Below are positions 26,033 through 45,477 of a stretch of 64,000 nt of DNA, piece after piece. The position numbers and the translations under genes are program-made. The notes below the pieces were generated by a model that saw only the letters and a program-made list of their open reading frames with translations, had not been told where the DNA came from and made no database searches. The first letter of the stretch is position 1; each line of letters begins with the position of its first letter. This DNA comes from Verrucomicrobiaceae bacterium (GTDB lineage: Bacteria; Verrucomicrobiota; Verrucomicrobiia; Verrucomicrobiales; Verrucomicrobiaceae), in the NCBI GenBank assembly GCA_947458455.1, contig CANGYJ010000004.1:1-64000 (forward strand), given 5' to 3'.

Positions 26033-26111
26033 TCGACAAAAGAATGGGGACAAGAGAATGGATTATGGATTTCTGTTTCGGGCTATTCTTCTGCCCCCAT
26101 TCTTTTGTCGA
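26033..26111. repeat. Stop-codon palindrome, copy 1
   Basis: Perfect 17-bp arms TCGACAAAAGAATGGGG and CCCCATTCTTTTGTCGA, with a second imperfect inner pair around AGAGAATGG and TATTCTTCT. The left end lies 8 bases upstream of the DUF1552 start, and the right arm contains the stop codon of the GxxExxY gene (26083). Confidence 0.9.
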
Positions 26112-26913
26112 AATCTGACTGAATGGTCGTCACCTCCAGCCGGAAATGGTTCAGATTGATCCACTGCATGCCCTTCAGCGAAGGAGCGTGTTGCAATAGC
26201 ACTTCCAGATGCTCCCGATAGCTGGGTTGAGGCCGGGTGAAGCCTGTGACGATGAAACCATGTTCCACGTCATGGTGTGGCACGGGATGAGTTCCAAGTA
26301 TCAAGTCCCCAGACATCATCTCTGTCCGCAGCAAACAATTGGCTTCACCTCCGAAGTGATGAATGAGAGCTTCATTGTAAAGCCGATAATCCAAATGCGT
26401 CCCCCGGTCGCGGATGAGTTCTTTGAGGTGTTCGATCAACTCTGTGCAACGAGGTCCCAACGGTCTCCAGCCAGTCTTTCGCATGGTGGGCTGATGACGT
26501 TCGGGTTCACCCATGGCATTGCGGAGCAGTTTTCCGCGAACCTCGGATTCGCCAAAGTTCAGGAGCTTCACGAGACGGATGTTTTGAAGCATCGCGTAGT
26601 TCAGTGCTTGGGCGTCATGCTCACGGAGCAATGAGGCAACGACCTTGAGTTCATAAAGCATCTGATTCACCACGAGATCGAGAAAGTAGGTCTTTTCGAA
26701 GCTTCCGTGACTGACTTTGACCGGGACTTGTGTGTGAACCTCTAAACCGTGAGCACGCAGACGAGACGCCAGATCGTTCTCATAGATGCGTTCATCGAAC
26801 AGGCGACCAAAATGGTTCTGACTCGCGTAAGCACAACGCATCACTACCTCGTCAATTTCGGCGAAGGCTTTGTCCGAGATGCTTTGGAGTTCAAGTGTGC
26901 GGTGAATAGGCAT
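26083..26913 (-). CDS. GxxExxY-family protein with C-terminal extension
   Basis: The first 125 residues match the GxxExxY family: GRLFDERIYENDLASRLRAH GLEVHTQVPV, FLDLVVNQMLYELKVVASLL, and HDAQALNYAMLQNIRLVKLL NFG. These small proteins have a PD-(D/E)XK-nuclease-like fold and no settled function. A further 150 residues (RTEMMSGDLILGTHPVPHHD) are not recognised. The last residues, DKRMGAEE, are encoded by the palindrome. By eye the base composition is clearly lower in GC than the flanking genes. It sits between a DUF1592 gene and its usual DUF1552 partner, with a palindrome copy at each end, which suggests insertion. Confidence 0.75.
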   Translation of the reverse strand: MPIHRTLELQSISDKAFAEIDEVVMRCAYASQNHFGRLFDERIYENDLASRLRAHGLEVHTQVPVKVSHGSFEKTYFLDLVVNQMLYELKVVASLLREHDAQALNYAMLQNIRLVKLLNFGESEVRGKLLRNAMGEPERHQPTMRKTGWRPLGPRCTELIEHLKELIRDRGTHLDYRLYNEALIHHFGGEANCLLRTEMMSGDLILGTHPVPHHDVEHGFIVTGFTRPQPSYREHLEVLLQHAPSLKGMQWINLNHFRLEVTTIQSDFDKRMGAEE

Positions 26914-26925
26914 GACAGTAAAGAA

Positions 26926-26993
26926 TCGACAGGAGAATGGGGAGAAGAGAATGGGATAAAAAAGTCATTCTTTTGTCCCCATTCTCCTGTCGA
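26926..26993. repeat. Stop-codon palindrome, copy 2
   Basis: Perfect 17-bp arms TCGACAGGAGAATGGGG and CCCCATTCTCCTGTCGA. It differs from copy 1 at two positions in each arm, and the changes match in both arms, so pairing is kept. The right half contains the stop codon of DUF1592 copy 1 (26965). Confidence 0.9.
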
Positions 26994-29562
26994 TAAAGAC
27001 TTCGCTTCGAGCCAGCGCATGGATTAACGACCTCATCCCATACCCGTTGCTCTTCGTGCTCTCGACGATCTGGCGGATCTGGGCTCGGTCGGCAAAGCTG
27101 ACTTCGGCTCCGGTGGCGTAGCGGGAGAGGTGGGCGATGAAGGCGCGGGCGAGTCGGGCGGGATCGTTGGTGAGGAGGACATTCAGATCATTCGGGCCGG
27201 TGAACGAGCGGCCATCGGTGAGGGTGCCGCTGGGGTCCACTTTGGGACCGAGCTTGTATTGCACGCGCCAGTCGGTTTTGCCTTTTTCGGGTGGTTCGTC
27301 GCCTTGGCCGTTGGAGCGGTAGCGATCACGCAAGCCACCGATGGGATCGAAGGCTTCGAGAGCGAAGCCAGCGGGGTCGATCTTCGCATGGCAGGCGGCG
27401 CAACTGGCATCGGCGCGATGCTTTTCGAGCTGCTCGCGAACGGTGGTGGTGCCCCGAGTATCGGGATCGACAGCGGAGACGCCCGGCGGCGGAGGCGGGG
27501 CGGGATCGTTCAACACGCGATCCATCACCCACACGCCGCGCTTCACGGGCGAGGTGGTGGTGCCATTGGCGGTGAGCTTGTGAATGGCCGAGTGGCCGAG
27601 CAGGCCTCCGCGCAGACTTTCCGGTGGCAGCGGCACTTTGCGCGGCTCCACACCATGCACGTCTTTGATGCCGTAGTGCTCGGCGAGGCGTTGCGTGAGC
27701 ATGGCAAAGCCCGGTTTGAGCAGCGCGGTGATGCGGAGATCGTTTTGGATGAGTTCGCGCAAAAAGGCACGCGTCTCGGCTGCCATGCCTTCGTGGAGCA
27801 AAAAGCGATACTCGGGGTAAAGCTGCGGATCGGGCGTGGTTTCATCGAGCCGGCTGAGTTCGAACCATTGATTCGTGAAGTCCTCGATGAAGCGGTCGCT
27901 GCGTTTGTCCGCGAGCAGGCGATCCACCTCTTTGTGGAGCACGGCTGGGTTTTGGAGGTCTGCGGCGAGCAATTGGGCATCTGGCGGGCCGTTCCAGAGC
28001 CAGTAGGAGAGACGCGACGCGAGCGAATCCGGGGCATGAAACAAAAACTCTGGCGAAGTGAGCACCGCGACATACACACGCCGCATCGCGTCCTCGAAAC
28101 AGTCCTTCGCGGCGAGTCGAGAGCGCAGCAGCGCCACATAGGGCTCGATCTCTTCGGACTTTACCTCCCGACGAAACGCCTTCGGCAAAAACGTCGTGAG
28201 CAGCTTGCGGGCATCTTCTTCCGGCTGTGCCGACTGCACGGTCTCCAGCGGCGGTTTACGCTCCTGTGGCGTGAGATCGAAATGCATGCTCGGCACATAG
28301 CCGCCGATGCTGCGCACCTCCTCGCGCTGCGGCGGCACCGCTTCACTGCCTTGCGGCCACGGCTTGATCGGCAGATCGCCAAACAAACGCTTGTGGGTTT
28401 CTGGTGGCCACACGGCGTTGATCGGCCCTTCGATCTCGAACCAGTCAATGGCCAAGCCCGGCCCGACATGCTTCTTCGCGCGTCCGGCCACCTGTCCCAC
28501 GCGCAGGCCCATCCACGGCACCGACACTGGATCAAAGACGATGCTTTCATGCGCATCGAGCCACTCGGTGATCTCCGCCTCGTTCGACTTCATCGACGGC
28601 GCAGTGAACGCTTTTAGCAACCGCCCGCCTTCCTGTTGCTTGCCCTCCTCATGCGCCCGCAGCACCGCAGCCTGGGGCGCGGTGCAAGGCTCTGGCTTGC
28701 CCAAGTTCCAGTGAAAGCCCCAGAGCGAGAGCTTCATGCGATACATCCCCGCGTAGATCGGCGACACATTCATCGCCGCCTCATAGCCCGCGAGATTCGG
28801 ATTGAGCAAGCCGACCGCGCTTTGCGATTTCTTCACGGCTTCGAGCAGCTTGCGCCTTTCCTCCAAGTCGGGGCCCGCATCACCCACATGGCCTTTTTTG
28901 TCCTCAAAGCCGCCACGCACTGGCAGCGCCGGATCAGGCTGCTTGTCCTTCAGCAGCACGAACTGCCCTTGGAGCAGGTTCCCGCCAAACTTGAACAACC
29001 CCGCCGGATAGATGCGCCTCTTGAAGACTCGCGGCGGTGCACTGCTCGTGGCGATCGCCGCATCCAGCGCCTTTTCCACCGCCTCCTCATACGCCGCGAG
29101 ATGCGCGGGCGAGATGTCCAACGCTCCCGCCATCTTGTCATAGCCCGCCACGCGGCCATCCGCCGGCAGCAGCGCCGTGATGTCGAGCCTCGGCAGCGCC
29201 AGCAGGTCCTGCAGTGTGTTTTGAAACTCCACCCGCGTCATCCGTCGCATCCGAATCCGCCCCTGATCGCCCACCTTTGCCAGCGCCATCAGCTTCGCGT
29301 CCATCTCGCTCACAAACGCAGCCTTTTCCGCCTCCGCAGGATGCTTTTTCTTCTTCGGCGGCATCTCGCCACGCTCCACGGCATCATGCACTTTGACGAG
29401 CAGGTCCAGATGCTCCGCGTCAAAGGTGAGGGCGGTCAAATCGAGGTCACCCTTCTTCGTCTCCGCATCATGGCAGTCATAACAATGCTGCTCCAAAAAC
29501 GCCGTCGGTGGCGCAGCGAAGAGTGTGGTGGAAAGAAAGCAGGCGAGGAAGTGGCGAAACAT
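26965..29562 (-). CDS. DUF1592-family secreted cytochrome-like protein (copy 1)
   Basis: The ATG at 29562 gives a signal peptide (MFRHFLACFLSTTLFA) and 865 residues. Domain order: a heme motif CYDCHDAETKKGDLDLTALT; DUF1587 (RRMTRVEFQNTLQDLLALP); a jelly-roll-like middle ending LAIDWFEIEGPINAVWPPET; DUF1595; DUF1592 (SRLSYWLWNGPPDAQLLAAD); DUF1588 (RGGLLGHSAIHKLTANGTTT SPVKRGVWV) with a second heme motif, CAACHAKIDPAGFALEAFDP; and DUF1585. These periplasmic proteins pair with DUF1552 partners and are thought to process or oxidise polymers; activity is unproven. The final residues DRRMGTKE come from the palindrome. Confidence 0.88.
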   Translation of the reverse strand: MFRHFLACFLSTTLFAAPPTAFLEQHCYDCHDAETKKGDLDLTALTFDAEHLDLLVKVHDAVERGEMPPKKKKHPAEAEKAAFVSEMDAKLMALAKVGDQGRIRMRRMTRVEFQNTLQDLLALPRLDITALLPADGRVAGYDKMAGALDISPAHLAAYEEAVEKALDAAIATSSAPPRVFKRRIYPAGLFKFGGNLLQGQFVLLKDKQPDPALPVRGGFEDKKGHVGDAGPDLEERRKLLEAVKKSQSAVGLLNPNLAGYEAAMNVSPIYAGMYRMKLSLWGFHWNLGKPEPCTAPQAAVLRAHEEGKQQEGGRLLKAFTAPSMKSNEAEITEWLDAHESIVFDPVSVPWMGLRVGQVAGRAKKHVGPGLAIDWFEIEGPINAVWPPETHKRLFGDLPIKPWPQGSEAVPPQREEVRSIGGYVPSMHFDLTPQERKPPLETVQSAQPEEDARKLLTTFLPKAFRREVKSEEIEPYVALLRSRLAAKDCFEDAMRRVYVAVLTSPEFLFHAPDSLASRLSYWLWNGPPDAQLLAADLQNPAVLHKEVDRLLADKRSDRFIEDFTNQWFELSRLDETTPDPQLYPEYRFLLHEGMAAETRAFLRELIQNDLRITALLKPGFAMLTQRLAEHYGIKDVHGVEPRKVPLPPESLRGGLLGHSAIHKLTANGTTTSPVKRGVWVMDRVLNDPAPPPPPGVSAVDPDTRGTTTVREQLEKHRADASCAACHAKIDPAGFALEAFDPIGGLRDRYRSNGQGDEPPEKGKTDWRVQYKLGPKVDPSGTLTDGRSFTGPNDLNVLLTNDPARLARAFIAHLSRYATGAEVSFADRAQIRQIVESTKSNGYGMRSLIHALARSEVFIDRRMGTKE

Positions 29563-29620
29563 GAGACAGACAGGTCTCATCATTACGGCGAAACGGGCCG
29601 AACTCGACAATGACGGTGAA

Positions 29621-29703
29621 GTAGGCAGAAGAATGGGGGCAAAAGAATTGGGATCAGTTTTTTTATCGGCCTTTCATTCTTCTGCCCCCATTCTCTTGCC
29701 TAC
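29621..29703. repeat. Stop-codon palindrome, copy 3 (GTAGGC variant)
   Basis: The 21-base outer arms begin GTAGGCAGAAGAATGGGGG (left) and end CCCCCATTCTCTTGCCTAC (right), with two mismatches. The outer bases are GTAGGC instead of TCGAC. It ends 7 bases before the SGNH hydrolase stop codon in genome coordinates, that is, just downstream of that minus-strand gene. Confidence 0.88.
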
Positions 29704-29709
29704 ATCCGG

Positions 29710-30537
29710 CTAATTCAGAGCCAGGAGCGGTTTCAGTCGCTCGGCATACACCTCATAACCTGCTGGCGAGAGGTGGATGTTGTCTGGGGTGAAGAGGTCC
29801 TTCTTGATCGTGCCATCCGCGTTGGTGAAGTCGGGCCAGAGATCGAGGACTTTCACCTTCGGATCGCTGTCCAGCTTGAGGGAATCGAGGGCGGCGTTGG
29901 TTTTCTTGATGTCTTCGTAGAAGGCGTTTCCGGGCGTGTGAGCCGGCAGAATCTTCGCCACGATGATGGCGGCAGCGGGGAACTTCTCTCGCAGGTTCTT
30001 CAGGCACATCTCGATGCCTTTCGCGGCGGCTTCGATGCCGGTCTCGGGGGTGAAGAACATGTTGTTGTTGCCGATCATGAGCACGATGGCCTTCGGCTGC
30101 AATCCCTCGACGCCGCCGTGATCGAGACGCCAGAGGACGTTTTGCGTTTTGTCGCCGCCGATACCGATGTTGACGGCTTTGAGGTCGGGAAAGTGCTTCT
30201 TCCAGGAATCGCCCCACTGGATCGTGATGCTGTCACCGACGAGCAACACATCGAGCGGGCCTTGATTCGCCTGCACAGTCTTCACATGTGCCTCGTGCAG
30301 CTTCAGCCATGAGTCACCGCCGAAATGACCCGCTGTCGGCACTTGAGGCCAGAGCTGCGGCAGATGCTTGTTCGATTCGCGCCCAGGGCGACGCTCGTAT
30401 TCCGGCTTATCGACGACATAGGTCCGTTCTTCCGCCGTGAGCGGCCAGCCGGTTTTTTGAGGCTCGGCGGTGACATGGGGGTAATCGAGAGCGGCAGCGG
30501 TGGAGGCAACGAGGAGGAGGAAGGTGAAGCGGATCAT
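29710..30537 (-). CDS. Secreted SGNH/GDSL-type hydrolase
   Basis: The ATG at 30537 gives a signal peptide (MIRFTFLLLVASTAAA) and 275 residues. SGNH blocks are present: LLVGDSITIQWG (nucleophile serine), NIGIGGDKTQNVLWRL, VLMIGNNNMFF and DNIHLSPAGYEVYAERL (catalytic Asp and His). It resembles the PAF-acetylhydrolase gamma-like branch common in this phylum. It probably removes acetyl or acyl groups from glycans or lipids outside the cytoplasm. It lies between two DUF1592 genes on the same strand. Confidence 0.85.
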   Translation of the reverse strand: MIRFTFLLLVASTAAALDYPHVTAEPQKTGWPLTAEERTYVVDKPEYERRPGRESNKHLPQLWPQVPTAGHFGGDSWLKLHEAHVKTVQANQGPLDVLLVGDSITIQWGDSWKKHFPDLKAVNIGIGGDKTQNVLWRLDHGGVEGLQPKAIVLMIGNNNMFFTPETGIEAAAKGIEMCLKNLREKFPAAAIIVAKILPAHTPGNAFYEDIKKTNAALDSLKLDSDPKVKVLDLWPDFTNADGTIKKDLFTPDNIHLSPAGYEVYAERLKPLLALN

Positions 30538-30581
30538 CTGGGTTGATACGGAGAGGTGCGCTGACACTCGACACGGATTTA

Positions 30582-30647
30582 TCGACAGAAGAATGGGGAC
30601 AAGAGAATGATCGGAATCAGATTCTTCTGTCCCCATTCTTTTGTCGA
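30582..30647. repeat. Stop-codon palindrome, copy 4
   Basis: TCGACAGAAGAATGGGG (30582-30598) pairs with CCCCATTCTTTTGTCGA (30631-30647) with one mismatch. It ends 17 bases from the stop codon of DUF1592 copy 2. Confidence 0.9.
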
Positions 30648-30663
30648 AATTCTTCGCGCATAC

Positions 30664-33600
30664 TTACTTCCGACCAAACTCCCGGCTGGTGACGAGTGAG
30701 GCGATGATCTCGCGGATCGAGAAATCCTTCGCTTTGGCTCTTTTGACGATGTCATCCGCGAGCGCGGCATCTGTGAAGCCATATGGCCTGCCGAGCGCAT
30801 ACTCGATGAGGGCCTCGGTGAAGCCTTGAGCAAAATTTTCGCTCTTGGCGGCGATTTGGTCGCGGAGGTCGAAGTAGGTTTGGAAGGTGGGGCCGTTGTG
30901 GAATCGGCCGGCGAGGTCGATGGGCCAGTCTTTTTTGGTTTTGGGGTCGTGATCGACGTCGCGCCATTTGCCGGCGGCGTTGAAGTTTTCGAGGCCGAAG
31001 CCGATGGGGTCGATTTTGCGATGGCACTGGAGGCACTGGGGCTCTTCTTGATGGGCGAGGAGGCGTTCGCGCGGGCTGATGGGTTTGCCGGCGAGTCGGT
31101 CGAGCTGCGGCACATTCGGCGGGGCGGGCGGTGGTGGATTGTGGAGGAGTTTGCGCAGCACCCAGGCGCCGCGCTCGACGGGGCTGGTGCGCTCGCCGTT
31201 GCTGCCCATGGCGAGAATGGCGGCCATGCCGAGCAGGCCGCCGCGTGGGGAGTTGGCGGGGAGTTTGACCTTTTGAAACGCATCGCCGCTCACGCCGTCG
31301 ATGCCGTAGTAGGTGGCGAGCAGGCCGTTGACGTGGATTTCGTCGCTCTTGAGCAGTTGGGTGAGGCTGCCGTTGTTTCGCAGCAGGTGGGCGAAGGTTT
31401 CATAGACTTCGCGGCGGGCGGCGGCCTTGGCGCTCTCGTCGAAGTCTCGGAACTGCTTGGTGTCGAACTGGAAGAAGTCGAGACGGTCCATGCCGAGCCA
31501 CTGATGCACGAAGCCGCTGACGAAATCGTCCGCCTTCGGGCTGGCGATGAGGCGATCCACTTCGCGGCTGAGGATGTCTGGCTTGGTGAGGTCGGCGGCG
31601 AGCAAAGCATCGTCGGGTGGAGCGCTCCAGAGGAAGTAGGAGAGGCGGGAAGCGAGTTCGGATTTCGACAAGAGAATGGGGACAGGAGAATGAGATTCAG
31701 AAGTCTTATTCTTCTGTCCCCATTCTCCTGTCGATCCTGCTTCTTGAAGATACAAAAACCCAGGTGACGCCAGAATCACGCTCAGTGGCTCTTTGAGGGC
31801 CGTTTCGTGAGCATCGCCTGCTTTGCGGCGCACATCGTAAAGCACACTCAATTTGTCCAAAAAGGCGGCGGAGGGCTTTTTGCCTCGGAAAGCTCGTTCA
31901 GCGAAGGTTTCGAGCACCGAGCGTGGATTCGTTTCACCAGCAGCGATCACAGGTTTCACCTGCGATCCGGTTTCGATCTTGTTCAGCGGGCCTTGCCACT
32001 CGATCCAGTCGATCCAGAGCACGGGATCGCGTTGTTTGGCGTCGGTGATCTGGCGGGTGCGACCGGGCAGGCTGATGGTTTCTTTTTTCAGCGGTCGCTT
32101 TTCCATGAGGATAAACTTCCGCGGACCACCGGGTCGGATTTGGAAGGGCAGCTCGATGACCTCGGGCTGGTCGAGCGTGGCGGTGATTTGTTTGTTCGCA
32201 AGGAAGGTGCGGTCGTCTTTGTCGATGGGGCTGGCTTCGACAAAGGAGAGAAAGGCACGCTCCGTGGGCATGTCGGGCACGCGGCCGATCTTCACGCGCA
32301 TGACGTAGTCGCCAGTGGCGAGGTCGGCGGGCACATCGATGGCGTGCTCGCAGGTTTCCTGCACGGTGTTGTCGAGATAGAGGCCGGTCTTCGAGAGCGG
32401 GCGGTCGAGGTATTGTTGGAACCAGCGGTTGTTGCTGTCCCACACGACCTTGGCGAACTCCGCGTGTGATTTGTCGGTGAAGCCGAACTCCTTCAGCCGC
32501 TTCTCATCGCCACCGGTGGCCTTCCACTTGGCGTATTGCTCGTTGAGGTATTGGAAGCGCAAATGACCGCGCTCGACATCGGCGCGGCGTTTCTCCGGCT
32601 CGATGCGCTCGACGTTGGCGATGGGCGCCTGCTTCACCAGCGGGCCTTTCCACTCCACCCAGTCAATCCACAGCGCGGAGGGCGGTCCCACGCCAGTGGC
32701 TTTCTGCGCGGTGGTGAAGAGTTCGTGATCGAGCTTCACATCCCGCCTCTCGCGCAGCACAAAGGTGCGCGGACCATCGGCGGCGAGGCTCACTGGCACC
32801 TCGATGATCTGCGGTGCGTCGGTGGTGCCGCTGATTTGGAGCGTCTGCATCAAAGTGAAGTCTTCATCGCCCGCCTTGCGACTGCCGAGCGCGACGAAGT
32901 GCCGCTCCTTCGGCGTACCCTTCACCGCGCCAATGCGGAAGCGCAGCAGGTAATCGCCCGGCTCGGCTTTTTCGACCTCGTGCTTCGTTTTGAGCCAGCC
33001 GGAGGGCTGATCTGGCGGCAGCGTGATGACCTCATCCTTGTGGACGTTGTAGATCGTCAAATACGCGCCGGTCTTGGTGAGCGGATCGTTCAGGTAACGC
33101 TCAAAACTCGGCCCATGCTGCTCAAAGCCACGGATGCGAAACTTCGCTTCCTGCTCGTCCGGGATGCCCTTTTGCGGCTGCCTGGTCTCCATGAACTTCT
33201 TCGCCGCCTCGTAGCCGCCTTTGAAGTAGCCATTGTAAGTGCCGCCGACCATCGCGTTCGCATGCAGCTCGACTTCGCGGCGTTGTTTGATGGTCTTCGT
33301 GAAAGCGGGCGCATTCGCACTCGCCACCTCGATCCAGTCAATCCACAGCGCGAACTCCGGCCCGATGCCGTTGCGCTTCTTTGCTTCGGCAAAGAGACGA
33401 TGCGCGACCTCTTCGGACTCATAGCTGCCTTTCTCCTGGAAGAAAAAGCCGTGGCCGTTCACGGGCGAGAACTTCAGCGGAATCTCGATCACCTGCGGCT
33501 TCTCCATCGTGCCAGTGACTTGATGGCTGCTCGTCACCGCACGCACGCCGGTGTCATGCTGTGAGCCGAACTCGACGAAGTGCCGCTCCTTGGGCGTGTT

Positions 33601-34635
33601 GCTCGTGGCCGCGATGCGCACCCGCACGACGTAATCGCCCGCAGGCCAATCGCCAGGGATGCGGAAGGGCTGATACGGATTCGCGAACACATCCTCGATG
33701 GTCAGGAAGCTGCCTGTCTTCGCCGCTGGATGCGCCAGGTAAGCAAGCTGCTGCGGCACGGAATGCACCCAGTTCCGCCGACCCTGCTCGTCCGCATGCA
33801 CCGCATCTGTGAAGCCAAAATCCGATGGTGAAGGCGCGCCTTGGATCCTCTGCCACGCGAAGAAGAGATGCGTCGCATCGCCCTTCTTCTCCGCGCGGAT
33901 CTGCGCGACGACATCTGCATTCTCAGGCCTCGCCGCTGCTGCATTCACCGCTGCCGTCCACTTTTCGTAGCGCTCATGCGCATCCGTGCGCTCCTTCAGC
34001 GATACCGCGATGCGCGCATTGCGCTCCTCCGCTTCGACGTGCATCAACCGCGGCTTGGTCGCCGTCGGCGCGATGAACCGCGCGAAGTGCTCATCCAGCG
34101 CCTGCCGACCAAGCGCGAGGTATTGCTCAAACTGGTCCGACGACATGAAGAGCGATGAGCCCACGGTATCAAAGGTGCCCGCACCGCCATCGGCGGGCAG
34201 CTCGTTCACCCGCAAGTCCACGCCGAGCAGATCGCGGATGGTGTTCTTGTATTCGCGACGATTCAGGCGGCGCATCGTGATCTTGCCACCGGAGTCACTG
34301 AGGGCTGTGCGGGCCGTGACGAGCGTGCGGGAGAGGTCGTCGAGGAAATCGGTCTTGGCGGCAGGTGAGGGCTGCTTTTCGTCTTCCGGCGGCATTTCGC
34401 CCGAGTTGATGGAGTTCAGCACCTTTTGCCAAAGATCGGCCTTTTCGACTGAATCGAGCGTGAACGCGATGTCATCGAGCCGGACCTTGCCTTTTTGCTT
34501 CTCGGCATTGTGACAGGTGAGGCAGTTGTCTTTGAGAAAGGAGCGGTGCTTGGCATCGAGCAAGGCCTGGGGCGGCTCGGCGAGAAGCGTGGATCTGAAG
34601 GTGACGAGAACGAGGACGAGGACGAGCCGAGTCAT
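30664..34635 (-). CDS. Giant DUF1592-family protein with three jelly-roll repeats (copy 2)
   Basis: The ATG at 34635 gives 1323 residues with a signal peptide, a heme motif near residue 40 (NCLTCHNAEKQKGKVRLDDI) and DUF1587 (RRLNRREYKNTIRDLLGVDL). Three copies of a region of about 220 residues follow, beginning near residues 307, 523 and 750. Each has a GDY..R.RI strand pair, a TPKERHF-like motif in two of the three, and a closing ALWIDWIE-like motif. Then come DUF1595, DUF1592 (ELASRLSYFLWSAPPDDALL), DUF1588 (RGGLLGMAAILAMGSNGERT) with a second heme motif, CLQCHRKIDPIGFGLENFNA, and DUF1585. The extra repeats look like carbohydrate-binding domains. A palindrome copy is translated in frame near residues 967-990. 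Confidence 0.85.
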   Translation of the reverse strand: MTRLVLVLVLVTFRSTLLAEPPQALLDAKHRSFLKDNCLTCHNAEKQKGKVRLDDIAFTLDSVEKADLWQKVLNSINSGEMPPEDEKQPSPAAKTDFLDDLSRTLVTARTALSDSGGKITMRRLNRREYKNTIRDLLGVDLRVNELPADGGAGTFDTVGSSLFMSSDQFEQYLALGRQALDEHFARFIAPTATKPRLMHVEAEERNARIAVSLKERTDAHERYEKWTAAVNAAAARPENADVVAQIRAEKKGDATHLFFAWQRIQGAPSPSDFGFTDAVHADEQGRRNWVHSVPQQLAYLAHPAAKTGSFLTIEDVFANPYQPFRIPGDWPAGDYVVRVRIAATSNTPKERHFVEFGSQHDTGVRAVTSSHQVTGTMEKPQVIEIPLKFSPVNGHGFFFQEKGSYESEEVAHRLFAEAKKRNGIGPEFALWIDWIEVASANAPAFTKTIKQRREVELHANAMVGGTYNGYFKGGYEAAKKFMETRQPQKGIPDEQEAKFRIRGFEQHGPSFERYLNDPLTKTGAYLTIYNVHKDEVITLPPDQPSGWLKTKHEVEKAEPGDYLLRFRIGAVKGTPKERHFVALGSRKAGDEDFTLMQTLQISGTTDAPQIIEVPVSLAADGPRTFVLRERRDVKLDHELFTTAQKATGVGPPSALWIDWVEWKGPLVKQAPIANVERIEPEKRRADVERGHLRFQYLNEQYAKWKATGGDEKRLKEFGFTDKSHAEFAKVVWDSNNRWFQQYLDRPLSKTGLYLDNTVQETCEHAIDVPADLATGDYVMRVKIGRVPDMPTERAFLSFVEASPIDKDDRTFLANKQITATLDQPEVIELPFQIRPGGPRKFILMEKRPLKKETISLPGRTRQITDAKQRDPVLWIDWIEWQGPLNKIETGSQVKPVIAAGETNPRSVLETFAERAFRGKKPSAAFLDKLSVLYDVRRKAGDAHETALKEPLSVILASPGFLYLQEAGSTGEWGQKNKTSESHSPVPILLSKSELASRLSYFLWSAPPDDALLAADLTKPDILSREVDRLIASPKADDFVSGFVHQWLGMDRLDFFQFDTKQFRDFDESAKAAARREVYETFAHLLRNNGSLTQLLKSDEIHVNGLLATYYGIDGVSGDAFQKVKLPANSPRGGLLGMAAILAMGSNGERTSPVERGAWVLRKLLHNPPPPAPPNVPQLDRLAGKPISPRERLLAHQEEPQCLQCHRKIDPIGFGLENFNAAGKWRDVDHDPKTKKDWPIDLAGRFHNGPTFQTYFDLRDQIAAKSENFAQGFTEALIEYALGRPYGFTDAALADDIVKRAKAKDFSIREIIASLVTSREFGRK
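31665..31734. repeat. Stop-codon palindrome family, copy 5, inside a gene
   Basis: TCGACAAGAGAATGGGG (31665-31681) pairs with CCCCATTCTCCTGTCGA (31718-31734) with one mismatch. Here the element is translated in frame (TGEWGQKNKTSESHSPVPIL) just before the conserved ELASRLSYFLWS block of the giant DUF1592 protein. Confidence 0.9.
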
Positions 34636-34643
34636 GAGATTCA

Positions 34644-34709
34644 ATAGGCAAGAGAATGGGGGCAAAAGAATAGGGCCATTCATTCTCCTGCCCCCATTCT
34701 TCTGTCTAT
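34644..34709. repeat. Stop-codon palindrome, copy 6 (ATAGGC variant)
   Basis: The left arm begins ATAGGCAAGAGAATGGGGG and the right arm ends CCCCCATTCTTCTGTCTAT, with three mismatches. It lies 13 bases past the stop codon of DUF1552 copy 2 and just upstream of the DUF1592 copy 2 start. Confidence 0.88.
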
Positions 34710-34721
34710 AGATGCAGCCTG

Positions 34722-35996
34722 TTACACGATGAGTTCCTTCACCAAGCCGGTGCTATCGCCGTGGCGCTCGGCTTCGATGCCGAGGCCGTTCAGCATGGTC
34801 AGCCACACGTTGCAGAGCGGTGTGTCTTTGGGCAGCACGAGGTGGTGGCCGAGTTTGAGGTTCGCGGCTCCGCCGGTGAGGACGGTGGGGCAGTTGTCGA
34901 GGTAGTGGATGGTGCGGATGTTGCTGCCGTAGGCGAGGGCGATGTGATCAAACAACGTCGTGCCATCGGCTTCCTTCGTGGCCTTGAGCTTGTCGATGAG
35001 ACCGGCGAGCAGCTCGCTCTGAGTCGTGTCACGCTTCTGCGAGGCGGCCATGCGATCACCGGGGCTGTAGTGGCTCATGTCATGCGGCGCGACCTTGGTG
35101 CCGAGACTTTGCAGCAACGTGCCCACCGGCTGCCGGTAGGTGAGCACCCGCGTGCTATCCGTCTGCAAAGCGGCGACGATGAGGTCATACATCACTTCAA
35201 TTTCCGCTTTGCCTGCGAGACCGGGTTTGGGTTCGGAGACGGGCGGTTTGGACTTCGGCACGCTGAGCCATTGCTCGTCCTTGCCGAGTCGCACTTCGAT
35301 GTCGCGGATGCTTTGGTAGTATTCGTCGAGCTTGTCGATGTCCGTCTTGGTGAGACCGTTTTGCACGCGCTTCGCATCCTCCAGCACCGCATCGAGCACG
35401 CTGCGTTTCTGCGCCAGCATGGCCTGGCGCTCGCTCAGAGGCGTGGTGTCGTTCGAGAACAGGCGATGAAATGCCGCGACGGGATTTTCGAGTCCCGCCA
35501 TCGGTTTGCCGCGCGGGTCCCAGGCCATCGACAAGCCGGGTCCGTGGCCGGAGTTCGCCACGTCCGGAGTGTTAAGCTGGATCGAGGCAAAGCGCGTCTC
35601 CTTCCCCAGATGCGCCGCCGCCACCTGATCCGCGCTGATGCTGTTGTGGAAGCTCTGCCCCGGCTCCGCATAGCGATTCGCGCCCGTGAGCCAGAACGTG
35701 CTGCCCCAATGCGCCTCATTGGCGAACTTGTTGGCACAACCCTGCACCACCGTGATGTCTTTCTGATGCCGAGCGAGCGGCTTGAGGCCCTCAGAGATTT
35801 GCCAATCGGCCCCGACCTTCGTTATGTCCGGGAACCACGTCTCATTCGTCACGCCCCAGCCAAAGCCGAGGAATACCATGCGCTTCGGTGGTGTCGCGAC
35901 TTTCGGAGCGGCGAAGGCTTTGAAGCCGATGGAATCAAGCGCAGGCAATGCGATGAGCGTGCCGGTGCTGCGGAGAAAATGGCGGCGGGTGGTCAT
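34722..35996 (-). CDS. DUF1552 family secreted protein (copy 2)
   Basis: This 424-residue protein starts MTTRRHFLRSTGTLIALPAL, a Tat-like leader, then PPKRMVFLGFGWGVTNETWF, FLTGANRYAEPGQSFHNSIS ADQVAA and AYGSNIRTIHYLDNCPTVLT GGAANLKLGHH, the family pattern. It precedes DUF1592 copy 2 by 86 bases, the usual paired arrangement, though with the DUF1552 gene first. The two probably act together outside the cytoplasm. Confidence 0.85.
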   Translation of the reverse strand: MTTRRHFLRSTGTLIALPALDSIGFKAFAAPKVATPPKRMVFLGFGWGVTNETWFPDITKVGADWQISEGLKPLARHQKDITVVQGCANKFANEAHWGSTFWLTGANRYAEPGQSFHNSISADQVAAAHLGKETRFASIQLNTPDVANSGHGPGLSMAWDPRGKPMAGLENPVAAFHRLFSNDTTPLSERQAMLAQKRSVLDAVLEDAKRVQNGLTKTDIDKLDEYYQSIRDIEVRLGKDEQWLSVPKSKPPVSEPKPGLAGKAEIEVMYDLIVAALQTDSTRVLTYRQPVGTLLQSLGTKVAPHDMSHYSPGDRMAASQKRDTTQSELLAGLIDKLKATKEADGTTLFDHIALAYGSNIRTIHYLDNCPTVLTGGAANLKLGHHLVLPKDTPLCNVWLTMLNGLGIEAERHGDSTGLVKELIV

Positions 35997-36044
35997 GGGG
36001 CGCGGGGAATTGGAGAGGTGGAGTTTTGGAGTAATGAACTGAGT

Positions 36045-36060
36045 TTAGGCAGAAGAATGG
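36045..36060. repeat. Half copy of the stop-codon palindrome
   Basis: TTAGGCAGAAGAATGG matches the left arm of the GTAGGC variant but no right arm follows; the alpha/beta hydrolase stop codon lies 10 bases away. It is probably a truncated element. Confidence 0.65.
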
Positions 36061-36069
36061 TTTCCAGAT

Positions 36070-37086
36070 TCACTTCCGCTGTGGTTGATCCATCTCGCAA
36101 TCCGCATCCATCGGCACCGCGGGGCCGCTTTGATCGACAGGGTGTGTGAAGAGGTAGCGAAAGACCTCATCATACACCCACTGGCCCATGAGATCCTTCC
36201 CACCCGGCACGACGATGGTGTGGGCGCGGCCCGCGTTGTTTTTCACATCGATGTTCGTGATGAGGCGGCGTGTGTTGCCGTAGGGTGGTTTGGCGGCGTC
36301 GATGTTCACGATGGGGCCGTGGTGGTGCATCTTGAGCAGTTGCCACGAGCGGCAGTAGTGATCGGCGGTCCAACCGCCGTCGAGAATGTGCGTGAAGCCG
36401 AAAAAGCGGTTCGAGGGCGTGGCGGAGGGGCCACCTTGCCAGGTCTCGGTGTTGTCACGAGGGCCGGAAAACATCACCACGCGGTCCACCTTTTGACGCA
36501 TGGCAAAACGCGCCGAAGTCGTGCTGCCGTGAGAGATGCCGCTCATGATGACTTTCTCCCAGCGCAGGCCGTTGCCGTCGTCGGTGAGGAACTGCTGCCA
36601 CTTGCCCTCGGGGTTCGCTTTGACGAGCCATTTCACGAACTGCAACGAGCGCTCCATCATGCCATCCGACTTCGGGATGTTCACCAGCGGGCTGTGATCG
36701 TCACCCGTGGCGGCTTCGAGGCGGATATTGCCCAACACAGTGCCGGAGCCGTCCTCGTATTGGGCTTTGGTGATGCCAGCGAACCAGCCGTTCGAGTAAT
36801 GCGGCTGGATGCCGTGATAGCCGTAGCTGGAGATGCGCTCGAACAACCCTTGATTGTGCCCCATGAGCCAGATCACGAGTTTGCCCTGCGAAGGCACACG
36901 GCTATCCACGACGGCATGTTGAAGGTCGGCGGGTTTGCCCTTGTCATCGGTGAAGGTGAACTTGATCTCCGGGTGCTCCTTCGCACGCGGATCGATCTCG
37001 CTGGCTCGCTTCGAGAGATCAAAACGCTGGCTCTCGGCAGCGTGGAGGTGGGTGACGAGGAGGAAGGTGAGAAGGAGGGGTTTCAT
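36070..37086 (-). CDS. Secreted alpha/beta-hydrolase-like protein
   Basis: This 338-residue protein has a signal peptide (MKPLLLTFLLVTHLHA). GKLVIWLMGHNQGLFERISS and VIMSGISHGSTTSARFAMRQ contain the nucleophile elbow GISHG of an alpha/beta hydrolase. A likely catalytic histidine lies in AGRAHTIVVPGGKDLMGQWV or the preceding MHHHGPIVN. It resembles the BPSS1187-type family from memory. The substrate is unknown. It lies between the membrane anti-sigma-like gene and DUF1552 copy 2, in the same direction. Confidence 0.65.
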   Translation of the reverse strand: MKPLLLTFLLVTHLHAAESQRFDLSKRASEIDPRAKEHPEIKFTFTDDKGKPADLQHAVVDSRVPSQGKLVIWLMGHNQGLFERISSYGYHGIQPHYSNGWFAGITKAQYEDGSGTVLGNIRLEAATGDDHSPLVNIPKSDGMMERSLQFVKWLVKANPEGKWQQFLTDDGNGLRWEKVIMSGISHGSTTSARFAMRQKVDRVVMFSGPRDNTETWQGGPSATPSNRFFGFTHILDGGWTADHYCRSWQLLKMHHHGPIVNIDAAKPPYGNTRRLITNIDVKNNAGRAHTIVVPGGKDLMGQWVYDEVFRYLFTHPVDQSGPAVPMDADCEMDQPQRK

Positions 37087-37104
37087 GCGGATGTGGCGTG
37101 GATT

Positions 37105-37153
37105 GTAGGCAGAAGAATGATCGGAATAAGGCTGCCTCCATTCTACTGCCTGC
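37105..37153. repeat. Shortened stop-codon palindrome
   Basis: GTAGGCAGAAGAATG and CATTCTACTGCCTGC are inverted arms with two mismatches, but the central part is reduced, leaving 49 bases. It touches the stop codon of the membrane protein gene at 37153. Confidence 0.75.
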
Positions 37154-38100
37154 TAACGCTGGGCTATACGAACGGGCAATGCAGGCTGGGTCTTCAGGGT
37201 GAGACGCACATCGTCGGCATAAAGTGAGTCGAGCACTGCGGGGCGGATGTTGGGCCTGGCGGCGAGCTGGATGACGGCGAAACCGGCCTCAGAGGGCATG
37301 AAAACACGCGTCGATCCATGCCGCCAGCGCCCCACATCACCTCCGAGCGTGGTCTGCAGCGAGGAACCGCTGGCGAGCGACTCCGGCGCGGCAAAGGGCC
37401 ACTTCGCATGCATATCGGACGGATCACCGCTGAAGAGAAAAATCTGCGCGGTGAAGGTGACCGAGGGTTTCGTGTTGGCCGGTCTGTCATCGAGAAACCG
37501 AGCACTCAGCTCCAGCACCGCATCCGCCTCTGGCACCAGCCCGGCACGGAGCGGACGCAGGTCCACGATTTGAAAAATGTCACACGAGATGGCCGGGCCA
37601 GCCGGGTCCGCTTCATCGGCCCCTGGACTCACAAATCGCAAAACCTGCCGTCCATCGCTCGCGGTGCGCTCCACGATGTCCGCCTCGTCTCCGCTCCACA
37701 CACCGCTTTGACGCGGAAAACCGCGCCCGATGGCCCTTTGCTCAAAACTGCCGTCCACCAAGGAAGAAAGCCGCTCGGTGGTCGCCTTGGGCGATGAGAT
37801 GGCCCAGACGATGGAGGCGCTAAACAACCCGATGACGAGTCCTGCCGCCATCGCGGCGATGGGGCGGGTGATCCAAGTGAAACGCTTCTTTTCCGGAGTG
37901 CGGCTGAAGACGCAGCCACTTTGAAAAGCCTCCTGACGGAAGCGATCATGCAGCACCATCGAGCGCAGTTGAGTCTCGGCAAAGAGCTGGCGTTTCGCGG
38001 GATCATCTCGCATCACGGCTTCGAGTGCGGTCATCTCATCGGGCGTGAGCACGCCGTCCTGATGACGCATGAGCAGGTGGAGAAAGTCGGTGTCGTTCAT
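37153..38100 (-). CDS. FecR/anti-sigma-like single-pass membrane protein
   Basis: This 315-residue protein has a cytoplasmic N terminus (MNDTDFLHLLMRHQDGVLTP DEMTALEAVMRDDPAKRQLF) typical of PVC anti-sigma/FecR-like proteins, one membrane helix (PIAAMAAGLVIGLFSASIVW) and a beta-rich exported domain with FEQRAIGRGFPRQSGVWSGD. It overlaps the ECF sigma gene by four bases, so it probably holds that sigma factor inactive until an external signal arrives. Confidence 0.75.
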   Translation of the reverse strand: MNDTDFLHLLMRHQDGVLTPDEMTALEAVMRDDPAKRQLFAETQLRSMVLHDRFRQEAFQSGCVFSRTPEKKRFTWITRPIAAMAAGLVIGLFSASIVWAISSPKATTERLSSLVDGSFEQRAIGRGFPRQSGVWSGDEADIVERTASDGRQVLRFVSPGADEADPAGPAISCDIFQIVDLRPLRAGLVPEADAVLELSARFLDDRPANTKPSVTFTAQIFLFSGDPSDMHAKWPFAAPESLASGSSLQTTLGGDVGRWRHGSTRVFMPSEAGFAVIQLAARPNIRPAVLDSLYADDVRLTLKTQPALPVRIAQR

Positions 38101-38612
38101 GAGCCGGAGTCGGTTTGAAGGCGGGTGCGGATGCAGTCGCCGAGGGTTTTGTGCAGGCGGGCGAGAGCTTGATAGACGGTTTCGATCTTGCGGCCCATGA
38201 TCGCGGCCACATCGGTGCAGTTGCGACGCTCAAAGTAGCGCAGGCGGAGCAGCTCACGGTTGTTGGGCGTGATTTGCTCGACGCACTGACTCAGTGCCTC
38301 CTGCATGGTGTCCACACGGCTTTTCTCCGGCCACTCGTCAGCCAGCAGAGCGAGCATTTCATCACTCAGGCCCACATAGCGGCCATCACGAGCACGGAGA
38401 ATATCGATGGCGCGATTCTTTCCCGCGAGCCGAGCCCAGTTCATGACATGCGCCGTCGTCTCGAAGGTCTCCGCTCGCGCCACGGCCTTCACACAGACCT
38501 CCTGAAACACATCCTCAGCCAGATGAAAATCTCGCGTCACACTGGCAAAGAACGCCGTGAGCGGCAGCCGCTCGGCGAGCAGGGTGGCGGTGATGTCTTC
38601 CGGGGCGTGCAT
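38097..38612 (-). CDS. ECF-family sigma factor
   Basis: The ATG at 38612 gives 171 residues. Region 2 reads RDFHLAEDVFQEVCVKAVAR, then TAHVMNWARLAGKNRAIDIL; region 4 reads LSQCVEQITPNNRELLRLRY, CTDVAAIMGRKIETVYQALA RLHKTL. This resembles the Rhodopirellula/Verrucomicrobium sigma subfamily. Together with the overlapping membrane protein it forms a signal-transduction pair within the long cytochrome/DUF1552 block, which it may control. Confidence 0.88.
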   Translation of the reverse strand: MHAPEDITATLLAERLPLTAFFASVTRDFHLAEDVFQEVCVKAVARAETFETTAHVMNWARLAGKNRAIDILRARDGRYVGLSDEMLALLADEWPEKSRVDTMQEALSQCVEQITPNNRELLRLRYFERRNCTDVAAIMGRKIETVYQALARLHKTLGDCIRTRLQTDSGS

Positions 38613-38658
38613 GACTTTGCACAGACTACGGCGATTCTGGCGAAAACTCGACATCGCG

Positions 38659-40542
38659 TCACTTCTTCACTGCCTCTTCCACAAACTTCAGCAGCAGAGG
38701 AAAGGCCGGCTCGGGCATCTTGCCGTGATCGAAGCCGTCGAGTTCGTGCAGCATCGTATCCTTGTGACCGGTGAGCTTCATCATGCGCCAGAAGTAGGCG
38801 CACTCTTCGTAGCGGCCCATGAGTTCTCTTTCGCGATCGCCAGTGACGAGGAGGATGGGCGGCGCGTCTTTGCGGACGTGAAACAGCGGCGCGAGGTCGT
38901 CGATGATCGGCTGCGTCTCCTCGATGTCGCGCTCGTCGCGGATGGTGAAGTGCGTGATGACCTGTGGGCTGAGCGGGATGAGCCCGGCGAGGTCGTCAGC
39001 ATTCACGCCGTGCTTGGCGAGCCACTTCTTATCTAGGCCGCACATGAGCGTGAGGTAGGCTCCGGCGCTGTGACCGCTGACAAAGATGCGCTGCGGATCA
39101 CCGCCGAAGTCGGCGATGTGTTTGAAGGTCCATGCGATAGCAGCGGCAGCATCTTCGATGAAGACAGGCGATTTCACGCCGGGGCTGACGCGATAGTTCG
39201 CCGTGACGACGGCGATGCCTTGATTGCGCAACGGCAGCGGAATGGAGCGCTCGCCCTGTGTCAAACCGCCTCCGTGAAACCAGATGACGGTGGGAAACGG
39301 CTTCTTCGTGGCCGGTGCATACACATCGAGCCTGCAACGCTGGTTTTGCTCAGCCGTGATGCCTTTCTCCTCGCGGTAAAGCAACTCCGCGGTGAGGTGA
39401 TAGCCGCCGTCGATGATTTGTTTGCCGAGTTCGCGGCTCACGCTCGCGAGGATGGCCTCGGCTTCGGTAAATTTCGACGCAAACATCAGCGTGGCGGCTT
39501 CATCGAGCTTCGTGGCATTGCCGCCGCGTTTGCGGAGTTGGTAAAGCATGACCGGCAGGCGCAGATCCGCCGGATTGCCGCAGCGCGGGAGCTTTTCGAG
39601 ATGGCGGAAGCCGTTGTTGCGAGTCGGCTCGATCATCGTGCCCTCGCCGTAGTCGTTCCAGGTGGCGATCTGGATGAGCGGTGCCTTGCTTTCGAGCGCC
39701 TGAGTGAGCGATTCGCTCAACGTGAGGCCGTTTCGCGAAGCGATGCTGCCGTAGCTGTCATGCACGCCTGCTTGTTTGTAGATGTCTTTGAAGCCTGGGA
39801 ACGCGGTGGCGATGAAAGGCTGCTTCTGCGCATAAATGAGGCCGAGTTCCGTCTTCCACTGATCGGTGCTGAGAGCTTTGCCACCCGTGACCGGTGGCCA
39901 CGCGAAAGCGCCATCGAGTCCGTTTCCCTTCGCGAGATGCGCGAGACCAAACACGAGCGGTTGGGACTCCAGATTGAACTTCCACCTCAAATGCTGCGGC
40001 CCGAAGACGAGCAGCACCGGGCGGTCATCTTGGCGGACGTAGCTCGGATCGGCGAAAAAGTGCTCCTCGGCCCATTGCAGGTCTTTTTCGGCCTGTTTCG
40101 CGTCCTCGCCATTCTTGAGCGACTTCACCGCCTGGTCCTCGTAGCATACCGCGAAGCTCAAACCGGCCTTTTTCAGCCACGAGATGAACCTCTGCGTGTT
40201 GCGATGGTTCATCGCGTGGTCGTTGCGGTCGCTCGTGCCATACCAGTCAATGACCACACCATCGAGCCCGGCGATCTTCATGAGCAGCGCCTGGCATTCC
40301 AGCGCCTGATCATCCCCCGAGTCATACGGCCCGATGAGTGGGTAATCATGCGAGGCGATCTCCCGCTGGTCATCCCACTTCTTCTGCTCCGGGTCGAAGT
40401 GATTCATCGTCCAATGCCAGCCCCAGGCCCCGCTGACATCCTTCGTGGCATACCACGGCATGTAGTGCGCGAGAAGACGTGGCTCCGCCGAGAAAGCGGG
40501 GAGCAGAGGGCAGAGAACGAAGAGGATCAGGAGAAGGCGCAT
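38659..40542 (-). CDS. GH71/99-like domain fused to an alpha/beta-hydrolase esterase
   Basis: This 627-residue secreted protein (signal MRLLLILFVLCPLLPAFSA) has two parts. Residues about 20-330 resemble the GH71/GH99-like TIM barrel: LLAHYMPWYATKDVSGAWGW HW, AGLDGVVIDWYGTSDRNDHA, IATWNDYGEGTMIEPTR. Residues about 400-627 are a BD-FAE/carboxylesterase-like hydrolase: VIWFHGGGLTQGERS (oxyanion hole, near 424), IFVSGHSAGAYLTLMCG (nucleophile serine, near 490), and aspartate and histidine in ILLVTGDRERE and DGFDHGKMPEPA. It may cleave and deacylate an acylated polysaccharide. It lies 46 bases upstream of the ECF sigma gene start. Confidence 0.8.
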   Translation of the reverse strand: MRLLLILFVLCPLLPAFSAEPRLLAHYMPWYATKDVSGAWGWHWTMNHFDPEQKKWDDQREIASHDYPLIGPYDSGDDQALECQALLMKIAGLDGVVIDWYGTSDRNDHAMNHRNTQRFISWLKKAGLSFAVCYEDQAVKSLKNGEDAKQAEKDLQWAEEHFFADPSYVRQDDRPVLLVFGPQHLRWKFNLESQPLVFGLAHLAKGNGLDGAFAWPPVTGGKALSTDQWKTELGLIYAQKQPFIATAFPGFKDIYKQAGVHDSYGSIASRNGLTLSESLTQALESKAPLIQIATWNDYGEGTMIEPTRNNGFRHLEKLPRCGNPADLRLPVMLYQLRKRGGNATKLDEAATLMFASKFTEAEAILASVSRELGKQIIDGGYHLTAELLYREEKGITAEQNQRCRLDVYAPATKKPFPTVIWFHGGGLTQGERSIPLPLRNQGIAVVTANYRVSPGVKSPVFIEDAAAAIAWTFKHIADFGGDPQRIFVSGHSAGAYLTLMCGLDKKWLAKHGVNADDLAGLIPLSPQVITHFTIRDERDIEETQPIIDDLAPLFHVRKDAPPILLVTGDRERELMGRYEECAYFWRMMKLTGHKDTMLHELDGFDHGKMPEPAFPLLLKFVEEAVKK

Positions 40543-40692
40543 CAGGTCAAACGTTGGTCGTGTGGATCAAAGCAGAGTCGGGAAACCTTATCCACTCTCA
40601 AGCGGACCACGATGGGCAGGAGCGGCACTCGCATACTGCCGTGCCACCGTTCATCCGCCCAGCAGTGAGGCAGCCGCACTCTGAGCGCACCT

Positions 40693-41994
40693 TCAGGCGT
40701 GAAGCTCAGAAATCATTCCTGTGCTGGAGACAAAGCGATCAGCCTCGATACCGAGGTGCTGGAGCATGGTGACGAAGAGATTGCACAGCGGCTTGTTGTG
40801 CAGGGTGTCGAAGGCGAGGTGCTGGCCGTGTTTGAATCCGCCGCCCGCGAGGAGGACGGGGAGGTTGGTGCAGTTGTGGACGTTCGCATCGCCGAGGTTG
40901 CTGCCGTAGAGGACCATGGTGTGGTCGAGCAGGCGTTGGCCCGCGGCAGGTGTCGCGGCGAGTGCGGCGATGAGATCGCGGAGGTGGCGCATTTGTTGCA
41001 GGTCCACCTTTTCGAGTTCGGCGAGCTTTTCCTTCGATTGGCCGTGGTGGCTGAGATTGTGGTAGCCGTCGCGGGTGCGATGCTGTGCATCGATTTCAAA
41101 CACAGGCGTGGCGAAACCGTCCACCATGAGGGTGATGATGCGGGTGGAGTCGGATTCGAAAGCGAGCCGCGCCATGTCGAGCATGAGCTGGATCTTGGGG
41201 AAGAACCTCGCCTTGTCGGCGATGTCCTTGGGTTCGGTGGTCTTGATTTGCGGCTTGGGTTTCTGCTCCCACTCGCCGGAGATGGCGAGGCGCTCTTCGA
41301 GTTCACGCACGGAGGTCAAGTATTGGTCCAAACGCGAGCGATCCGTGGCGCTGAGTCCGCGTTGGAAACCGCGCATGTCTTCGCCTAATACATCGAGCAC
41401 GCTGCCGCGCTCTTGCAGGCGTTTGAGGGAGAGCGCAGTCTGCTTGGCATCGCCTTGGATGAACATTTTGCGGAACAAGGCCGCTGGGCTGTCTTCGGCG
41501 GGCAACAGCACGCCATCGCGTGTCCAGGAGAGGCTGCGGTTGGCCTTGTCGATGTTTACACCGAGATTCAGCGTTGGGAAACGCGTCACCTGGCCCAGTG
41601 ACTCGGCGGCGAATTGGTCGAGTGAAATGCTGTTGCGAAAGCCACTGCCCGTCGGGTCGCGTGCGGCGGTGAGGAAGCAGTTTTCCGTGCTGTGTCCACC
41701 CGTCACCGCCGGATGCGAAAGGCCGCTGCACACGGTGAAGTCGTTCCTGAAGGCCGCGAGTTCCTTCAAATAGGGCGAGAGTGTGTAGCTATTGCCTTTG
41801 TCCTTCGGAAAGAAGTGCTGAGGTAGCACACCGAGGTTATTGGAGATCAGAAGCATCCGCTTGGGTGGCTTCGATTCCGCAGCACGGGAGAAGACCGGTG
41901 TCATGCATTCGAGCATCGGAAGTCCGAGTGTAACGCCGAGGCCACGGAGGAAACGACGACGAGGAAGAGAAGTGGCGATGTGTGGTGCGTTCAT
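40693..41994 (-). CDS. DUF1552 family secreted protein (copy 3)
   Basis: The ATG at 41994 overlaps the upstream DUF1592 stop (ATGA). The 433-residue protein begins MNAPHIATSLPRRRFLRGLG VTLGLPMLECM, a Tat-like leader, then PPKRMLLISNNLGVLPQHFF, CSGLSHPAVTGGHSTENCFL, FRNSISLDQFAAESLG and LYGSNLGDANVHNCTNLPVL LAGGGFKHGQH. It pairs directly with DUF1592 copy 3. Confidence 0.88.
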   Translation of the reverse strand: MNAPHIATSLPRRRFLRGLGVTLGLPMLECMTPVFSRAAESKPPKRMLLISNNLGVLPQHFFPKDKGNSYTLSPYLKELAAFRNDFTVCSGLSHPAVTGGHSTENCFLTAARDPTGSGFRNSISLDQFAAESLGQVTRFPTLNLGVNIDKANRSLSWTRDGVLLPAEDSPAALFRKMFIQGDAKQTALSLKRLQERGSVLDVLGEDMRGFQRGLSATDRSRLDQYLTSVRELEERLAISGEWEQKPKPQIKTTEPKDIADKARFFPKIQLMLDMARLAFESDSTRIITLMVDGFATPVFEIDAQHRTRDGYHNLSHHGQSKEKLAELEKVDLQQMRHLRDLIAALAATPAAGQRLLDHTMVLYGSNLGDANVHNCTNLPVLLAGGGFKHGQHLAFDTLHNKPLCNLFVTMLQHLGIEADRFVSSTGMISELHA

Positions 41995-45401: not shown

Positions 45402-45417
45402 GAGAAGTGGGATTTGA

Positions 45418-45477
45418 TCGACAGAAGAATGGGGACAGGAGAATAAGGCCATTTTTCTGTCCCCATTCTTCTGTCGA
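45418..45477. repeat. Stop-codon palindrome, copy with perfect 21-bp arms
   Basis: The arms beginning TCGACAGAAGAATGGGGACA and ending TGTCCCCATTCTTCTGTCGA are perfect over 21 bases, around an 18-base centre. It lies 17 bases past the DUF1501 stop codon and just upstream of the propeller-DUF1592 start. Confidence 0.92.

Follow-up and report, generated by a model that had tools for sequence, protein, structure and literature searches.

In the 64,000-nt window (the whole stretch of DNA analysed here) a gene for a large multidomain PSD protein contains a palindrome that is translated together with the conserved domains around it. How could a sequence of this kind become part of a protein, and what determines the place where it is kept? 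The palindrome reported in the earlier note is confirmed: a 70-bp near-palindrome (TCGACA...TGTCGA) occupies exactly positions 31665-31734. Folded with its flanks, the plus strand reaches -65.6 kcal/mol (z -9.45), where shuffles average -31.2, and none of 200 shuffles was equally low. Folding of the 70 nt alone as DNA gave z -9.2 and -8.3, one value per strand. The source genome (G000, 5.35 Mb) belongs to a group with Verrucomicrobiaceae, Prosthecobacter and Akkermansia MAGs as its closest named relatives, and it contains dispersed copies of the same sequence.

The reading frame is open throughout. It reads AGSTGEWGQKNKTSESHSPVPILLSKS, then ELASRLSYFLWS, and the translated element, STGEWGQKNKTSESHSPVPILLS, ends two codons ahead of the conserved ELASRLSYFLWS. 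Pfam matches place PSD5 (DUF1595) at residues 921-981 and PSD4 (DUF1592) at residues 1005-1128, with the insert at residues 984-1006; three domains precede it and three come after it in one frame, which bears out the claim that the palindrome is read in frame between DUF1595 and DUF1592. AlphaFold modelled residues 872-1339 with a mean pLDDT of 77.5. In the model, pLDDT is below 50 at positions 106-129 of the fragment, inside a loop between the helices 103-106 and 136-147, and the linker corresponds to positions 111-137 in the same numbering. According to this model, the insert occupies a low-confidence inter-helix loop.

Table 1. Family-A copies and the translated palindrome in the window, with the host gene and its linker
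Feature	Positions	Strand	Remarks
Family-A copy, 5' end of DUF1552 ORF, one A1 arm and one A2 arm	26033..26111	.	
Family-A copy between PDDEXK_3 ORF and 881-aa PSD ORF	26926..26993	.	
Family-A copy, A2 subtype, between 881-aa PSD ORF and GDSL lipase ORF	29626..29698	.	
Family-A copy over called 5' end of GDSL ORF, just beyond 3' end of PSD ORF	30582..30647	.	
PSCyt1-PSD3-PSD5-PSD4-PSCyt3-PSD2 (DUF1587/1595/1592/1588/1585) protein, 1339 aa as called	30664..34683	-	ORF, Pfam
Inter-domain linker, residues 982-1008, 81 nt	31660..31740	-	Family A, B, C or D in 28/65 homologous genes; the rest mostly 39 nt
Palindrome of family A (subtype A1) with TCGA ends and arm pattern CARRAGAATGGGGACARRAGAAT	31665..31734	-	Read as STGEWGQKNKTSESHSPVPILLS, residues 984-1006 of PSD ORF
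Family-A copy, A2 subtype, over called 5' end of 1339-aa PSD ORF, beside DUF1552 ORF	34649..34706	.	
Family-A copy over called 5' end of 1168-aa PSD ORF, adjoining DUF1501 ORF	45418..45477	.	

Since another copy of the repeat, of subtype A2, lies over the called start of this ORF, the called N-terminus is probably too long, and translation may truly begin at Met 17. Beyond residue 60, the length-variable regions other than the linker were compared in 20 PSD homologues and no long palindromic insert was found in them; 33 nt close to residue 206 of the window protein fold at -15.6 and are not an insert. Near residue 455, about 265 extra residues are present in L015, L017, L018, L024 and L037 and about 530 in L031, apparently additional copies of a repeated domain.

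The palindrome belongs to a repeat family, here called A, which has about 30 copies in its host genome. A BLAST search with the palindrome gave 43 matches on both strands. They merge to 29 places in the stretches examined (the two SbcD arms being kept separate and one weak 20-nt match included), and two more arm matches lie outside those stretches, on contigs C10 and C21. The arm pattern gave 47 matches in the same genome (23 + 24), the reversed control pattern none, and it occurs in 21 of the 56 genomes searched. Two arms of about 28 bp in inverted orientation make up an element, and each of them contains two 14-bp units; arms are found single, as pairs facing in and, in SbcD, facing out, and the copies with both arms span 52-79 bp (BLAST extents). 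There are two subtypes, in which ends and units change together: A1 has TCGA ends and GGGGACA, A2 has TAGG/CCTA ends and GGGGGCA. The arms agree in subtype in 25 of the 28 distinct pairs. The end bases of these pairs are mostly TCGA or TAGG/CCTA and never CGTC, with no GTAG tag; TGTC sits two bases inside the A1 end and is absent there in A2. Single arms fold at 0 kcal/mol in four of four cases tested, i.e., there is no stem-loop within an arm. Each unit has two purine positions (CARRAG) at which either A or G occurs. The arms match at 47 of 112 paired positions, against a shuffle mean of 58.6, and 4971 of 5000 shuffles equalled or exceeded the observed value, which is suggestive only, as the 28 pairs include related copies.

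Seven A copies are found inside the window on a stretch of 20 kb (26033-45477), all of them in or beside a cluster of PSD, DUF1552, DUF1501 and GDSL genes. In a few other genomes A copies also lie near those gene families, but several of them are orthologous in-gene copies.

Five A elements of the source genome lie within proteins that have domain matches before and after the element: the window PSD protein, HrpB, SbcD and a 1291-aa second PSD protein (at residues 670 and 1068). Other ORFs that seemed to read through A are short, have no Pfam match, or carry the element ahead of their first domain (a response regulator and GDSL, where the start codon is doubtful). The idea that an intergenic element has turned into coding sequence is upheld: a dispersed, mostly intergenic palindrome is now coding in frame, much like the Rickettsia palindromic elements (RPEs).

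The history of the PSD linker was followed in 65 homologous genes, orthologues and paralogues, with the linker taken between the flanks FLYLQE and ELASRLSY, both present in each gene; rows with short or poorly placed flanks, including L024, a carrier of C, were excluded. Elements were labelled by pattern scores, and one B row was assigned by hand. Family A is present in ten linkers, B in eight, C in eight and D in two; 37 have none. The earlier note held that relatives have only a short linker, which is true of these 37 (39-123 nt, mostly 39) and wrong for the 28 that carry A, B, C or D. The length of all 28 element-bearing linkers is divisible by three. Nor is the insertion private to the window gene, A being present in nine other rows, one of them decayed (L100) and one compound (L020, A followed by D-like sequence, counted as A). 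The same residues in all orthologues had been named as the sign of an ancient protein segment; what was found is A in near relatives and the 39-nt linker or other palindromes in the others. The linker is 81 nt long against the usual 39, so this is no plain 70-bp addition and native linker has been lost or replaced; no clear target duplication was found. In the flanks of the in-protein copies there was no consistent direct repeat of the kind expected of a MITE target-site duplication, AATCC being present on both sides in HrpB only.

Compared with dinucleotide shuffles, 22 of the 28 typed linkers have z below -3 (A 9/10, B 6/8, C 5/8, D 2/2) and none of the 37 others does. The labels of the remaining six (L009 -3.0, L100 -2.0, L017 -1.9, L126 -1.5, L034 0.5, L021 1.0) therefore rest on sequence resemblance. 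Families B, C and D look unrelated to A in sequence, and A, B and C each occur as dispersed repeats in the genomes that carry them. In PSD, C keeps a native-looking DERQRSLSPP to its right, and its landing point is in the same short linker as that of A, at a different nucleotide.

A tree built on 319 columns, linker excluded, needs 19 changes for the five labels, against a mean of 26.3 for shuffled labels. As the labels are jointly more clustered than shuffled ones, their distribution is partly inherited; B alone is unclustered. Starred branches force at least six changes for A, at least eight for B and at least six for C, and single-clade trees are rejected for each of the three. Each of these families has several origins in the PSD linker. 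The window gene belongs to a starred group of five: four rows have A and one, L009, has B and is sister to an A row with support 99/85. Several insert-bearing rows have sisters with a plain 39-nt linker, and distant paralogues carry several of the inserts (A in L119, B in L114-L116, C in L126). Some rows of the tree have long branches, and gene-segment exchange between species could explain some of the scatter of labels.

All five in-protein sites were selected for A in the source genome and are no random sample. For HrpB, SbcD and residue 1068 of the second PSD protein, the counts refer to the 30 loci listed per search of 56 genomes. The HrpB loop has 18 or 27 nt in 23 of its listed loci; it holds A1 in the source genome, A2 in G026 and an A-like palindrome in G032, and four other loops are 30-48 nt long, some with short palindromes. 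In SbcD, 29 of the 30 listed loci could be read (one has no flank pair): 14 have 27 nt, four have 33-51 nt, and the rest carry A1 (two), A2 (two), an A-like element (one), palindrome E (four), half of E (one) or another palindrome (one). E is itself repeated, with 26 matches in G005 (both strands counted) and 21 in G015. At residue 1068, the loop has 12-21 nt in 21 listed loci, and A1 is present in two, A2 in two, F or an F-like palindrome in four and another one in a single locus. All 89 loops of these three sites are in frame.

The SbcD coding region holds element sequence in 11 of the 29 listed loci (L247-L257), one of them having just half an element. SbcD is a subunit of a hairpin-cutting nuclease complex.

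At residue 670 of the second PSD protein, 17 of 30 listed loci were read. A (69 nt) is present in the source genome only, where it replaces the native 33-nt loop and does not merely split it; in 12 loci the loop is 33 nt long and free of palindromes, in four the sequence is longer and divergent, and there is no second family. Several families are thus found at four of the five in-protein A sites; residue 670 differs, and turnover is not universal. In HrpB and SbcD the named loop is the sole internal region with palindromic inserts, N-terminal differences being left out of account. More variable regions were found in the second PSD protein (25 rows), and two rows of these regions fold at -0.45 kcal/mol per nt.

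For family B, association supports mobilisation by a transposase acting in trans. In two genomes (L199 in G029 and L205 in G016) a Y1 gene lies between GTAG..TTGGGCTTCAGCCCAA repeats of B, and an inverted pair is found directly upstream of the gene. Two arms of L199 fold at -5.3 and -5.5. Its stem-loop unit, its GTAG tag and the RAYT-like gene between its copies make B a REP dimer of the GTAG/RAYT type. Families A, C, E and F are presumably moved by trans-acting transposases. A was not found in the examined flanks of 12 PF01797 matches in the source genome, and coordinates compared by eye in 10 genomes with PF01797 hits (A places listed fully for seven, partly for G006 and not for G022 and G033) gave no Y1 gene adjoining an A copy, the nearest being about 4.5 kb away (G024:C452). 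Among the 12 largest clusters of genes recurring beside A copies, PSD, DUF1552 and DUF1501 were recognised and no transposase; these clusters argue only weakly for enrichment, since several loci overlap or are orthologous in-gene copies.

The source genome also has a 353-aa Y1 transposase gene (L080, G000:C17:842-1900) with tandem 14-bp AACGGGGTCAGA units upstream. This gene was considered as the mobiliser of A and rejected: A was not found in the 30 loci of its relatives, and 12 of these show the AACGGGGTCA unit. Different palindromic or inverted repeats of their own are found in the stretches L077, L078, L079 and L081, which contain other Y1 matches of the genome.

Overall, we consider it probable that short palindromic mobile repeats insert repeatedly, and that a few permissive loops keep and exchange unrelated families. 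In the window gene, a dispersed palindromic copy of family A would have inserted into the loop joining two helical PSD domains. It would have been kept as its length preserves the frame, it is read through without a stop, and additional hydrophilic residues are tolerated in the loop. If permissive loops are few per protein, over evolutionary time some of them would receive, lose and regain palindromes of unrelated families, as may have happened in PSD (A, B, C and D), HrpB (A and others), SbcD (A, E and another) and the second PSD protein (A, F and another). The insert peptide is probably translated and neutral.

The families could also have replaced one another in place. A resident hairpin would then attract other palindromes, or arms would be exchanged by recombination or hairpin repair, one early insertion having seeded each loop and the families having been swapped later. 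We regard this as a serious possibility, though less likely than not. The left flank of the HrpB loop is common to G000 and G026, yet one holds A1 and the other A2; the concerted difference of the subtypes in ends and units fits such an exchange, as does the fact that A1, A2 and E in SbcD all come after the same DTQ/ETQ residues, and the wholly replaced native loop at residue 670 shows that replacement of loop DNA occurs. However, that loop had no earlier palindrome in relatives, C lies slightly apart from A within the PSD linker, and the plain-linker sisters of insert-bearing rows are hard to fit in. There is also no proven side-by-side pair of different complete elements, L020 looking like A plus D-like sequence.

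Recognition by the elements of a DNA motif encoded at these loops seems unlikely to us. TCGGATT beside TCGA is common to three in-gene copies, and TTGTCGAA in some default HrpB loops resembles the A end, but inspection by eye revealed no motif common to the loops. Elements with unrelated ends (TCGA, TAGG, GTAG, CACCGCAGAG) share a loop, and the landing points in the PSD linker are several codons apart, so loop tolerance fits better than a target motif. It is loop tolerance, rather than site-specific integration, that appears to set the positions.

An equally improbable reading is that the inserts are favoured as a mobile linker module, beyond mere tolerance. A is read as ST.EWGQ.N...VPILLS in three proteins and four of the five internal elements of the source genome are in the same reading frame, but one SbcD arm is in another frame, most homologues are without an insert, and the different families yield unrelated peptides. 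That the residues are an old protein segment, with a palindrome that is coincidental or locally generated, is hardly credible: ten rows, some distant, have A in common, but the reading is already refuted by the roughly 30 other copies in unrelated genes and intergenic regions, and 37 of 65 rows have no insert, other families stand in its place and a single A clade is rejected. Taken together, the interpretation of the earlier note is partly supported.

RPEs are dispersed palindromes of about 150 bp which form several families and are found in frame in unrelated protein genes, according to the summary of Ogata et al. (2000, 2002) in PMC10969869; the passages on their ends in PMC3733652 give CGTC, with TGTC as a frequent variant. 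Like them, family A is in frame in unrelated genes (PSD, HrpB, SbcD and the second PSD protein), where domains lie to either side of it. Unlike RPEs, it spans only 52-79 bp, has no CGTC end and its half-units are not stem-loops; its hosts are Verrucomicrobia, and other families are found in the loops that it occupies. Family A is not an RPE.

In-frame REPs are known in many species, REP dimers or groups being read as 20-30 residues; intragenic GTAG copies are most numerous in the verrucomicrobium O. terrae, and many intragenic REPs lie in DNA synthesis and repair genes (PMC3733652). The left end of B in PSD is GTGG, as in most GTAG-20 elements of O. terrae according to the passage describing them (PMC3733652). 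B is of this intragenic GTAG REP type, and SbcD is a repair gene, like the published REP hosts. Family A, in contrast to GTAG/CGTC REPs, has neither a GTAG nor a CGTC end and no stem-loop within the arm. In the REPIN-RAYT system, as the passages on it in PMC3116915 describe, the inverted pair is the unit, single arms are likely remnants, and insertion takes place into or beside older elements. Family A is like REPINs in these respects; it differs in that no RAYT was found nearby in the genomes compared, and the REPIN passages are concerned with extragenic space. The recB gene of two Xanthomonas species has "different REPs" at roughly one site, other genes of this category having them at different sites (PMC3733652). 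That section thus describes one same-site gene, whereas here four loops in four genes each hold at least two families. Beyond PMC3733652, a search of the open-licence literature with limited terms gave nothing on family A or on multi-family turnover in one loop among the matches listed. In-frame REPs, including those of Verrucomicrobia, are already published; multi-family loop turnover is the new part.

More speculatively, a small set of protein loops in this genus may be standing docks, where occupied loops attract or exchange unrelated families, a hairpin, once inserted, favours its own replacement and the peptide of the loop is repeatedly rewritten as a whole, SbcD included; we think this rather doubtful. 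The loops described here provide a natural, replicated record of the protein loops that tolerate 20-35 arbitrary residues, and unrelated palindrome families meet at the same loops. This makes it testable whether loop tolerance alone or hairpin-directed replacement determines the landing places of these elements, and how frequently, outside Rickettsia, protein linkers are rewritten by mobile DNA.
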